Source of the DNA: Pelagerythrobacter aerophilus
Lineage (GTDB): Bacteria; Pseudomonadota; Alphaproteobacteria; Sphingomonadales; Sphingomonadaceae
Length of the DNA: 64,000 nt
Reading direction: 5' to 3'
Assembly: GCF_003581645.1 (NCBI RefSeq)
Contig: NZ_QXFK01000014.1
Location: 310,001-374,000 of the forward strand
The position numbers were made by a program, and so were the translations under genes. The notes under the pieces were generated by a model. The model saw only the letters and a list, made by a program, of their open reading frames with translations, had not been told where the DNA came from and searched no databases. This document shows positions 47,102 to 49,911 of the stretch, piece after piece (position 1 is the first letter of the stretch; each line of letters begins with the position of its first letter).

Positions 47102-47554
47102 ATGATCCGCGACGACATCAAGCAGGCCACGGTCCAGGCAATGAAGGGTGGCGACAAGCCGCGCACCGCCGCGCTTCGCCTGATCTCCGCCCGGATCAAG
47201 GACCGCGATATCGAAATGCGCACGTCCGCCAAGGACGTGAACGACAACGATCTCGTCACCGAAGTGCTGCAAAAGATGGCCAAGCAGCGCCGCGAATCGA
47301 TCCACATGTATGAGGAAGGCGGCCGCGAGGAACTCGCGCAGCAGGAACGCGACGAGCTTGCGGTAATTGAGGAGTTCCTGCCGCAGATGATGGACGAGGC
47401 CGCCACCCGCGCCGCCATCGAGGACGTCAAGACCAGCCTCGGCGCCTCCTCGATCAAGGACATGGGCCGCGTGATGGCTGAACTGAAAGCCCGCCACGGC
47501 GCCGTGCTCGATATGAGCAAGGCGAGCGGCTGGGTGAAGGAAGCGCTGGGCTAA
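47102..47554 (+). CDS. yqeY: GatB/YqeY domain protein
   Basis: 150-aa helical protein with the domain found at the end of GatB/GatE; may bind tRNA or aid amidotransferase function, unproven. MIRDDIKQATVQAMKGGDKPR at the start, EEFLPQMMDEAATRAAI in the middle. Start ATG 47102. In relatives yqeY is directly followed by dnaG and rpoD; here a 480-bp element lies between. Confidence 0.92.
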   Translation: MIRDDIKQATVQAMKGGDKPRTAALRLISARIKDRDIEMRTSAKDVNDNDLVTEVLQKMAKQRRESIHMYEEGGREELAQQERDELAVIEEFLPQMMDEAATRAAIEDVKTSLGASSIKDMGRVMAELKARHGAVLDMSKASGWVKEALG

Positions 47555-47561
47555 GGTAAAG

Positions 47562-47596
47562 CTCCCCTCCCGCTTGCGGGAGGGGCTGGGGGAGGG
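47562..47596. repeat. Left 35-bp terminal inverted repeat
   Basis: Outer part is itself a hairpin: CCCCTCCCGC (47564-47573) and GCGGGAGGGG (47576-47585) around TT. The inner part CTGGGGGAGGG runs to 47596. Identical in reverse complement to 48007-48041. The GGGGGAGGG (47588-47596) sits about 6 bases before the TTG start of the nuclease gene and is its likely ribosome binding site. Confidence 0.9.
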
Positions 47597-47601
47597 CCTG
47601 T

Positions 47602-47991
47602 TTGGACAAGGGCTACAAACGACCGACCACCCGCTCACGCGAACTGCGCGTAAATCCCACCGACGCCGAAACCAAGCTCTGGTCCTGCTTGCGCTCCAAA
47701 CAAGTCGCTGGTGTCCGCTTCAACCGGCAGTACCCAATCGGCCCCTACGTCTGCGATTTCACCGCTCGGTCGAAGGGACTGGTCATAGAGGTGGATGGCG
47801 GACAGCACGCCACAGCCTCGTCCTACGACTCGGCTAGAACATGCTATATCGAGGCGCGCGGCTACCGCGTCCTCCGCTTCTGGAACAACGATGTGCTGAA
47901 CAATCTCGAAGGTGTAGTCTCGGAAATCGAGCGTGCGCTCGCCGAACTTGGCACGCGCGATATGTCCAAGCCACAGGGCAGCGACTGGTGA
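47602..47991 (+). CDS. DUF559 (Vsr-like) endonuclease domain protein
   Basis: 129 aa, TTG start at 47602. DUF559 belongs to the very-short-patch-repair/PD-(D/E)xK nuclease fold. The pattern is complete: ARELR-like opening (RSRELRVNPTDAETKLW), the buried FNRQYPIGPYVCDF with the metal-binding Asp, then LVIEVDGGQH (catalytic Glu and Asp/Gln) and GYRVLRFWNNDVLNNLEGV. Nothing suggests inactivation. Single gene inside the inverted-repeat element. Confidence 0.85.
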   Translation: MDKGYKRPTTRSRELRVNPTDAETKLWSCLRSKQVAGVRFNRQYPIGPYVCDFTARSKGLVIEVDGGQHATASSYDSARTCYIEARGYRVLRFWNNDVLNNLEGVVSEIERALAELGTRDMSKPQGSDW

Positions 47992-48006
47992 ACGGCTCTA
48001 CACATC

Positions 48007-48041
48007 CCCTCCCCCAGCCCCTCCCGCAAGCGGGAGGGGAG
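48007..48041. repeat. Right 35-bp terminal inverted repeat
   Basis: Exact reverse complement of 47562-47596. Its outer end GGGAGGGGAG (48032-48041) ends 4 bases before the dnaG ATG (48046) and provides the Shine-Dalgarno for dnaG. Confidence 0.9.
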
Positions 48042-48045
48042 TAAG

Positions 48046-49911
48046 ATGCTCTCACCCCAATGGCTGGACGAACTGCGTGCGCGGGTGACGCTTTCGAGCG
48101 TCATCATGCGCACGACCAAGCTCCAGCGCGCGGGGCGCGAGTGGAAGGCGTGCTGTCCGTTCCATAACGAGAAGACGCCGAGCTTCACCGTCAGCGACGA
48201 GAAGGGGTTCTACCACTGCTTCGGCTGCGGCGCGCATGGCGACGTGATCCGCTGGATGACCGACCAGCGCGGCCTTTCCTTCATGGACGCGGTGAAGGAA
48301 CTCGCAGCCGAGGCAGGACTGGAGGTCCCCGCACCCGATCCGCGTGCGGCGCAGCGGGCGGAAGAGCGCGCGGGGCTGCACGATGTGACTCAGGCGGCGC
48401 AGGATTGGTTCGTCGCAAGTCTCGAAGGACCCGGCGGCGCCAGGGCGCGCGAATACCTGCAGTCGCGCGGGTTCAATGCGCGGACGATCGAACGCTTCGG
48501 CTTCGGCTTCGCGCCCAACGAGCGGCAGGCGCTCAAGGCGGCGCTGTCGCGCTTCGAAGAAAAATTGCTGATCGAAGCAGGTCTGCGGATCTCGGTGGAG
48601 GAGCGCGATCCCTATGATCGGTTCCGAAATCGCCTCATGCTGCCGATCCACGATGCGCGCGGGCGAGTGATCGCGTTCGGCGGCCGCATCCTCGAGGCCG
48701 ATACCAATGCACCCAAGTACCTGAACTCGCCCGACACGCCTTTGTTCGACAAAGGGCGCACGCTCTACAACCTGCACCGCGCCGGGCCCGCCTCACGTCA
48801 GACGGGGCGGATGATCGTCGTCGAAGGCTACATGGACGTGATCGCGCTGGCGGCGCACGGGTTCGAGGATGCCGTGGCCCCGCTCGGCACCGCTCTGACC
48901 GAGCGGCAGATCGAACTGCTCTGGCGCATGGTCGAGACGCCGATCCTGTGTTTCGACGGCGACGCGGCGGGCCAGCGCGCCGCGATGCGCGCGATCGAGC
49001 GGGCCCTGCCCTTGCTCCGTCCCGCCCATTCGCTGGCCATCGTGCGTCTGCCTGCCGGGCTCGACCCCGACGACCTGCTGCGCGCGAAGGGCAAAGGGGC
49101 AATGGAGAAGTTGGTCGCCGAACCCGCAAGCCTGCTCGACACGCTGTGGGAATTCGAGCGCGCCGCACAGCCGCTGAACACGCCTGAGGACAAGGCCGGC
49201 CTCAAGCAACGCCTGGTCGATCACGTGGAGAAGATCGAGCATCCCGACATCCGCGCGCTTTACAAGCGCGAACTGCTGGAGCGCTTCTCCGCCTTTGCCT
49301 TCCCGCGCCGTGAGCGCACGCGCGGCGACTGGCGCAAACCGGTCGCGCCGCGACTTTCGCCGGATGCCGCCCGGCGGCTGCGCGGCGCACGAGACGGCTC
49401 GCGTGATCAGCTCGTCTCCGCAGTGATTGCCGGATTGGTGCGTTTTCCGGAGGAAGCGCTGCGCCATGCCGAACAGCTCGGACGCTTCGCGCAGATGGAT
49501 GCGAAATCCGGGCCGCTGGTCGACGCAATACTCGAAGCGGTGGAAATGCTTGAACCGGGAGAGATTTTCCCCATATCATCGTTCGACGGTCCCGTCGCGC
49601 CGCCGGATAACACCCGTTTCGCCTTCCTCAGTGAAGGCATCGATCCGCAAGACGCGCGCGAACAGTTGGCCGAAGCCGTAGCGTTGCTGGTCGAAAGACC
49701 CGCGCTGGAGGCTGCGCTTGCCGCAGCGACCGCGCGTTTCGAGACCGACCCTGAAGGAGCGTTCGCTGAGCAGCAGAGGTTGCTCAAACGAAAGCTGGAA
49801 TTCGAGCGACGACTCGGGCAAATGGCAAGCCGAAGGGCTGCTTCGGCGGCCCAAACTGATTCAACGCGTCGGCGGGAGACAGGGCCCGCCAACGGCGCAG
49901 AAACGGACTGA
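48046..49911 (+). CDS. dnaG: DNA primase
   Basis: Makes RNA primers at the replication fork; 621 aa. N-terminal CHC2 zinc finger ([12 protein letters not shown], then [10 protein letters not shown], about 38-66). RNA polymerase domain with [18 protein letters not shown] (about 260) and the metal-binding FDGDAAGQ (about 304). The C-terminal helicase-binding domain spans roughly 450-600. Start ATG 48046. Its ribosome binding site lies within the neighbouring repeat. Confidence 0.96.

Follow-up and report, generated by a model that had tools for sequence, protein, structure and literature searches.

Background

REP-type repeats are common intergenic elements of bacteria. Among their classes it is GTAG for which a dedicated enzyme is known; CGTC repeats are described as having none (PMC3733652). 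A further class of repeat, the triplex motif (TM) or PIT repeat, was given the consensus CCCTCNCCCN3-6GGGNGAGGGN3GGGNGAGGG by Holder et al. 2015 (PMC4666352). According to that paper, TM/PIT repeats are intergenic elements of more than 260 bacterial genomes, sometimes arranged as inverted pairs, and E. coli K-12 carries 23 copies including five inverted pairs. It also reports an intrastrand triplex formed in solution by TMECO oligonucleotides, ties the repeats to genome instability in E. coli, and states that no genetic-mobility activities were found around the TM sites. Among DUF559 proteins, Caulobacter VsrA is linked to mismatch repair and SOS by PMC12907096.

Results

A DUF559 gene enclosed by inverted repeats between yqeY and dnaG

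The window, by which we mean the whole stretch of 64,000 nucleotides that was analysed, holds a small DUF559 gene bounded by two copies of a repeat. The features of the locus are as follows.

47102..47554, + strand: yqeY (PF09424), upstream neighbour
47562..47596, + strand: left repeat, read directly from the sequence
47564-47585: hairpin of the left repeat, CCCCTCCCGCTTGCGGGAGGGG = CCCCTCCC-GCTTGC-GGGAGGGG; perfect, with 10-bp arms and a 2-nt loop
47586-47588: loop CTG of the left repeat, between hairpin and tail
47589-47596: gene-facing G-rich tail of the left repeat, GGGGAGGG, mirror image of the 3' arm GGGAGGGG
47602..47991, + strand: DUF559 gene (predicted nuclease), TTG start, 129 aa; PF04480 E = 2.7e-37
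48007..48041, - strand: right repeat, exact reverse complement of the left repeat
48007-48014: gene-facing tail of the right repeat, reverse complement of GGGGAGGG
48018-48039: hairpin of the right repeat, reverse complement of CCCCTCCCGCTTGCGGGAGGGG; 10-bp arms and a 2-nt loop
48046..49911, + strand: dnaG (DNA primase), downstream neighbour

The preliminary description had reported two exact 35-bp inverted repeats with 10-bp hairpins around the gene, placed 7 bases after yqeY and 4 bases before dnaG, and both statements agree with the sequence and its coordinates. The arms at 47562-47596 and 48007-48041 form a 35-nt identical run as reverse complements, a longer alignment of the repeats reaches 45 bp at 91%, and the gaps are 7 bases from the yqeY stop at 47554 to the left repeat and 4 bases from the right repeat to the dnaG start at 48046. 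In the left repeat the G-rich tail ends 5 bases 5' of the TTG start, and within 47588-47602 it occupies the putative ribosome-binding-site position. The tail could serve as the ribosome-binding site of the DUF559 gene, and folding of the repeat might therefore regulate or autoregulate that gene.

Comparison of the window protein with PF04480 gave 127.4 bits (curated cut-off 20.6) over profile positions 3-108 of 109, which places it in DUF559. An alignment of 34 sequences identified R16, E23, W27, F40, D52, F53, E63, D65, G66, H69, D76, R79, G87 and R92 as invariant, and the conserved D52, E63, D65 and H69 are kept in 120-121 of the 122 DUF559 genes that are flanked on both sides. An AlphaFold model of the window protein (mean pLDDT 86.2) matches the folds of 3hrl (Z 17.7), the homing endonuclease I-Bth0305I (3r3p, Z 13.9) and Vsr (1vsr, Z 10.3). 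The Vsr/PD-(D/E)xK fold that had been attributed to DUF559 in advance is also that of the predicted structure; the modelled protein shares the Vsr/EDxHD-type PD-(D/E)xK fold and is predicted to be a nuclease. The dN/dS ratio of the window gene against its copy in genome G151 is 0.09; six further pairs, including one from a single genome, gave 0.07-0.18. The conserved residues of DUF559 are intact and under purifying selection. A weaker-scoring type of DUF559 (L019, L020, L205, L210 and L214) has no C/T-rich flanking palindromes; because IMIDESG replaces the IEVDGGQH motif in L214, this branch may be domesticated and non-catalytic.

Flanking palindromes recur around DUF559 genes

DUF559 is found in 127 of 149 genomes of the family (Sphingomonadaceae). 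Perfect hairpins with an arm of at least 9 were surveyed around 196 DUF559 domains (137 labelled family, 31 class, 26 phylum and 2 unlabelled, with two domains each from open frames L162 and L082), matches with E above 1e-20 to a custom HMM being excluded. The labels follow the draw, so that the phylum draw includes same-class genomes and one same-family genome, and the family set consists of the best-scoring listed matches together with the genus matches, weak ones and orthologues included. The window gene and its G151 orthologue are the two unlabelled domains; they stand outside these tallies as well as outside the cold-shock, pair-matching, arm, tail-consensus and protein-palindrome permutation sets. 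Hairpin density in the family set was 4.5-9.7/kb across the four 50-bp bins lying up to 100 bp from the gene, against 0.00-0.36/kb beyond 300 bp. The corresponding near and far values were 4.5-7.7/kb against 0-0.33/kb in the class set and 3.1-8.5/kb against 0-1.15/kb in the phylum set, where the far maximum lies in the bin 400-600 bp downstream. Hairpins on both sides within 200 bp were present at 84/137 family, 10/31 class and 10/26 phylum domains, and on neither side at 23/137, 7/31 and 2/26, respectively. Cold-shock control genes at 30 loci of the same family gave 0 both-sided, 4 one-sided and 26 without.

A second set of named species (GTDB) gave 79 usable loci from 80, L270 having been left out at a contig edge. 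Hairpins occurred there at 5.01/kb within 150 bp against 0.143/kb beyond 300 bp, or about 35 times background. Matched inverted pairs were found at 35 of these loci, unmatched hairpins on both sides at 7, one-sided hairpins at 27 and none at 10. By record title, the matched pairs include Alpha-, Beta- and Gammaproteobacteria, Mariprofundus, Chloroflexi and a Gastranaerophilales MAG, and one-sided C/T-rich palindromes were seen in a Nitrospirae MAG, a Syntrophaceae MAG and two Desulfobacterales-type MAGs. A sample of seven DUF559 loci from a plasmid collection contained exactly reverse-complementary flanks in L363 (Deinococcus plasmid pDEIPR03), repeat pairs at both flanks of L369 (Sphingomonas parapaucimobilis), one-sided C/T-rich palindromes in L364, L367 and L368, an unrelated palindrome in L366 and no flanking palindrome in the cyanobacterial L365. 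In the Deinococcus plasmid loci L363 and L364, from two species, the DUF559 gene and its palindrome occupy different places in one and the same hpa cluster, which may reflect movement over a short range or insertions made separately. Phage records with a DUF559 match numbered 4. The preliminary description would have been refuted if other DUF559 genes lacked flanking inverted repeats; many have them, as the 84 both-sided family domains and the 35 matched GTDB loci show, and the pairing of DUF559 with palindromes recurs beyond the window in many distant bacteria.

The palindrome matches its partner and its protein

The upstream and downstream palindromes of the same gene share a mean inverted run of 12.7 nt, against 6.7 nt when permuted (maximum 7.6 in 2,000 permutations). 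Exact reverse complements over the whole hairpin account for 31 of 122 pairs, and exact direct copies for 4 of the 120 pairs that are not self-palindromic. A within-genome permutation was then applied to 86 genes from 32 genomes holding several DUF559 genes, palindromes being swapped among paralogues. Similarity of a palindrome to that of the nearest foreign protein homologue was 0.640 against 0.439 permuted, a value reached in 0 of 5,000 permutations, and the palindrome was nearer to the homologue's than to the mean of the paralogues' in 73 of the 86 genes and less near in 10. Restriction to non-syntenic homologues gave 0.512 against 0.385, and to those below 60% identity 0.450 against 0.362, again with 0 of 5,000 in both cases. 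On a protein tree of 165 genes, palindrome types changed 28 times, where 300 shuffles gave a mean of 75 and a minimum of 67; with within-genome shuffles of 80 genes they changed 14 times against 33.6 (minimum 25), the types used in the tree, tail-consensus and type-count tests having been set after inspection of the data. Palindrome type is thus tied to the phylogeny of the DUF559 protein and not to the genome that carries it, and this holds for non-syntenic loci as well.

Repeat architecture and the E. coli gene ycjD

Mirror symmetry of the tails was evaluated, with A and T equated, on 262 hairpins that flank DUF559 genes, 42 of 304 having been dropped for lack of a purine-rich arm or for a short tail. 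In 132 of the 262 hairpins the gene-facing tail mirrors the purine arm perfectly, against a shuffled-tail expectation of 0.9, and an outer-side mirror tail is present in 15. Among arms that are not mirror-symmetric, the mirror match was better in 111, the direct match in 27, and 45 were tied. About half of the hairpins have no mirror tail, as is the case for most CTTCTCC-type repeats. The tail consensus is G-rich, for example TTGGGGTGAGGG and CTGGGGGTGGGC, and the palindromes lack a GTAG tag at their foot. A layout of C-stem, G-stem and a third G-rich mirror stem, capable of a purine-motif triplex, is present in the window repeat and in roughly every second of the other hairpins; it is the commonest layout and that of the TM/PIT repeats. 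The arms of the window repeat, CCCCTCCC/GGGAGGGG, do not match the literal TMECO consensus, and many other DUF559 flanks have the arms CCCTCTCCC/GGGAGAGGG.

The DUF559 gene of E. coli is ycjD, located between sapF and fabI. TM repeats adjoin it downstream, with no TM-type repeat upstream, and the tail of the first copy in KE47 (L330) faces the gene as in sphingomonads; this copy is more degenerate in an O16:H48 strain (L332) and in H240 (L329). The second copy has the sequence of entries 9, 16 and 19 in Table 1 of PMC4666352. Since the repeats next to ycjD are imperfect, they were not flagged by the perfect-hairpin test. Of 5,426 E. coli genomes, 3,333 contain at least 80% of the 1.4-kb ycjD region. 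MG1655 itself presumably carries ycjD, and by the map position of fabI the second copy is probably entry 9 of that table. Among the 40 matches listed for the ycjD region, 14 cover the fabI part alone, and UTI89 (L331) is the one inspected. There, RND efflux and TetR-type genes (probably those named 'eef' in PMC12817139) occupy the place upstream of fabI that ycjD takes elsewhere; the region is a replacement and no clean empty site.

A dispersed repeat family in the genome of the window

The genome of the window (G000; 3.65 Mb in 19 contigs) contains 22 exact copies of the 22-bp palindrome (NN loop), against 0 for a reversed-pattern control, and 32 copies with at most 2 mismatches, against 1 for the control. 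These counts are therefore not due to chance. The palindromes are often paired about 40 to 100 bp apart, like REP doublets. The preliminary description would also have been refuted by a repeat that occurs nowhere else; it is a dispersed family in this genome.

Five DUF559 genes are carried by G000. Three are bounded by inverted palindromes of three families, CCCCTCCCGC (the window), CCCTCTCCCACCGGGAGAGGG and CCTCCCCAACG, and the genes at C6:685020 and C14:115752 are without flanking palindromes. These latter two have equal scores and matching flanks on two contigs, and the contamination estimate is 4.71%; a duplicate or a mixed assembly is possible. A search for decayed DUF559 within 8 other repeat regions of G000 gave nothing convincing, the best tblastn match having E 0.003 over 41 residues. 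A RAYT as the true mobiliser was considered for G000 and rejected there, its only Y1_Tnp match being one stop-bearing frame on C18, with no GGGAGGG/CCCTCCC run in its 2.7-kb locus.

Twelve sites of dispersed pairs were compared with G151 and G152, and no target-site duplications were recognised. The slot is mostly filled in every genome compared, at several sites with another repeat family, and the one clear empty slot is the L012 site in G151. The same intergenic slots were compared for L008, L009, L011 and L012 and their orthologues L333/L349, L350/L340, L341/L347 and L352/L344. Several orthologous slots in G000, G151 and G152 hold different families (a CCCCTCCCGC pair against a CCCTCTCCCC pair), a single remnant or nothing. 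Judged from these slots, the dispersed pairs evidently turn over, one repeat family apparently being replaced in place by another.

Repeat abundance accompanies DUF559

Two repeat patterns were summed across the 149 family genomes, the counts including the flanking copies of the DUF559 genes themselves. At least 5 copies were present in 55 of 86 genomes with a DUF559 match of E<1e-25, against 4 of the 63 others (p 1e-13). The threshold of at least 10 copies gave 40 of 86 against 3 of 63, and these three (G016, G020 and G111) have weaker DUF559 alone; a strong DUF559 is thus present in 40 of the 43 genomes with that many repeats. No genome among the 42 without a DUF559 match of E<1e-20 reached 5 copies, and at least one counted repeat was found in 21 of the 63 genomes without DUF559 below 1e-25. 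Nine threshold pairs were tried, with p below 1e-7 in all. Within the genus, a DUF559 gene flanked by CCCCTCCCGC is present in G000, which has 22 exact copies, and in G098, which has 25; G004 has 2 copies, and its two DUF559 genes have other flanks or none. A type-specific copy-number test on incompletely fetched genes gave p 0.0035 (form A) and 0.014 (form B), and the 17 completely fetched genomes gave p 0.023 (from a single positive genome) and 0.13. Type-specific dependence of copy number across the family is weakly positive, the counts being weak because the DUF559 genes of each genome were incompletely fetched.

Age of the copy between yqeY and dnaG

DUF559 genes are patchy across the genus. 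In the comparison of yqeY-dnaG gaps that the preliminary description had proposed, the gene is not universal at this site: it lies between yqeY and dnaG in G000 and G151 and is absent there from the other 5 of the 7 genomes of the genus. The order yqeY-DUF559-dnaG was found at 27 loci outside the genus, ten from genomes with G handles (L034, L035, L048, L089, L097, L099, L143, L144, L158 and L160) and 17 named (L249-L260, L265, L276, L284, L324 and L369), with species overlap possible between the two sets. Against G151, dS is 0.44 for DUF559, 0.42 for yqeY and 0.60 for the N-part of dnaG. The gene-free spacers of G150 and G152, in which no repeat is present, had suggested a recent insertion, a reading set aside in view of the 27 loci and the like dS of the gene and yqeY. 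No target-site duplication was seen on comparing by eye the filled (G000/G151) and empty (G150/G152) spacers, the junctions of which are unalignable. A second DUF559 site lies past carA, about 2 kb from yqeY-dnaG, in several Sphingomonadaceae genomes (L098, L108, L116, L126, L149 and L155).

Because of the 27 loci and a dS so close to that of yqeY, the simplest reading of the window copy is that of a long-standing, vertically inherited gene which some relatives do not have; independent insertions into the same spacer are a possible alternative. A recent minimal mobile element is not supported for the window copy, given also its dN/dS of 0.09.

Discussion

Considering the layout of the locus, the cognate pairing of palindrome and protein, their co-occurrence and the intact residues together, we therefore propose a nuclease of its own repeat as the best explanation. 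DUF559 is probably a cognate nuclease, dedicated to a family of dispersed palindromes that can potentially form triplexes and on which it would act. By inference, the protein binds its repeat and cuts it, reads a hairpin or a triplex, and through its cuts causes repeats to spread or to be replaced. The repeat-gene-repeat cassette would be the 'master' locus and the paired repeats elsewhere its non-autonomous progeny, a division of labour as in RAYTs and REPs, except that a Vsr/EDxHD-type PD-(D/E)xK nuclease would take the role of the HUH transposase. The enzyme may recognise the hairpin and its G-rich mirror tail when these are exposed in replication or transcription, and may nick or cut beside the hairpin. 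Repair of the break could then copy the repeat pair into intergenic sites or overwrite a pair already there. A cut whose repair copies a repeat in or replaces one would account both for the dispersal of the repeats and for the change of family in place. Counting against the proposal are the weak type-specific copy-number test, the DUF559 genes with no strong hairpin at either flank, the counted repeats in genomes without a strong DUF559, the CTTCTCC-type repeats that mostly have no mirror tail, the imperfect and one-sided repeats at ycjD, the failure to see a target-site duplication, the old and vertical rather than hopping character of the window cassette, and the link of VsrA to mismatch repair and SOS.

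The main rival, which we hold to be unlikely, is a host-domesticated, structure-specific repair nuclease that resolves or repairs lesions at hairpin and triplex repeats, or nearby mismatches, and so processes repeats without spreading them; the repeats flanking the gene would act as a regulatory sensor or a fork barrier. A repair-only role agrees with the purifying selection and vertical inheritance of the gene, with its Vsr-like predicted fold, with the G-rich tail at the ribosome-binding-site position in the window, and with the SOS link of the DUF559 protein VsrA (PMC12907096). Repair alone, however, leaves unexplained why distinct palindromes go with distinct proteins, why repeats are abundant almost only with the gene, and why an inverted pair resembling the dispersed ones encloses the gene.

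A homing-type element, in which DUF559 cuts sites or repeats of another family and the cassette or pair is copied by break repair with the arms as homology, is the mechanistic sub-case nearest to the dedicated repeat nuclease and overlaps with it, and as a separate explanation we judge it improbable. It is a close variant because a DUF559 gene is placed in the EDxHD homing family (PMC9403480), and it is consistent with several orthologous slots holding different repeat families in three related genomes and with I-Bth0305I being the closest characterised fold to the model after 3hrl. The 129-aa protein, however, is a catalytic domain alone, without the DNA-binding extension ascribed to I-Bth0305I in PMC3943268, no allele-specific cleavage site is known, and the yqeY-dnaG spacers of G150 and G152 hold no repeat for homing. 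That the palindromes are merely terminators or insertion hot spots gathering at dispensable small genes, with DUF559 as a passenger, fits mostly intergenic repeats and a gene patchy in the genus but is very improbable given 0 of 30 both-sided cold-shock controls, flanks that match each other, a palindrome that tracks the protein at non-syntenic loci and an abundance that accompanies DUF559.

Extending the dedicated repeat nuclease more widely, DUF559 might represent a second, RAYT-independent class of repeat system in several phyla, with a Vsr/EDxHD nuclease that reads a hairpin-plus-triplex structure, copies or converts repeats, and includes in ycjD the TM/PIT enzyme; we regard this broader statement as evenly balanced. 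If true, the enzyme so far missing for the intrastrand-triplex repeats would be supplied, its E. coli representative being ycjD. As a small nuclease of a type that is repeat-enclosed, co-varies with its repeats and co-occurs with their abundance, ycjD is a direct and easily tested candidate, and a function would be given to a domain that Pfam describes as unknown. A search of the open PMC literature, in which subscription papers are few and bioRxiv is absent, found no paper linking DUF559, YcjD, COG2852 or PF04480 to palindromic or triplex repeats. The parts are known, and the pairing of DUF559 with repeats appears to be new within the open literature.

The preliminary description had drawn an analogy to REP/RAYT with a different enzyme, and this analogy stands, as inverted copies of a dispersed palindrome flank the gene and the enclosed gene is DUF559. 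Like the REPtron (TnpAREP/RAYT), as characterised in PMC8266576 and PMC3733652, the system has inverted repeat copies around a gene, intergenic doublets, a repeat type that fits its protein and a likely domesticated, vertical mode of inheritance. It differs from the REPtron in its enzyme, a DUF559 protein of predicted PD-(D/E)xK/Vsr type here and an HUH Y1 transposase there, and in its G-rich mirror tail, where the REPtron has GTAG; the inverted dispersed-repeat flanks of a REPtron are present and its HUH Y1 transposase is not. The predicted fold is shared with Vsr, I-Bth0305I and 3hrl (NGO0050), at VIA Z values of 10.3, 13.9 and 17.7, whereas the window gene has no methylase or intron context, comprises the catalytic domain only and is enclosed by repeats. 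Caulobacter VsrA (CCNA_02930) is likewise a solitary gene with a DUF559 domain in the account of PMC12907096, but the role proposed for it there is mismatch repair. With the TM/PIT repeats, the system shares a hairpin of C-stem and G-stem followed by a third G-rich stem, an intergenic location and, in E. coli, copies beside ycjD; it differs from them in the arms of the window repeat, CCCCTCCC against CCCTCNCCC of the published consensus, and in its association with a gene, the paper of Holder et al. reporting no mobility gene for the TM sites.
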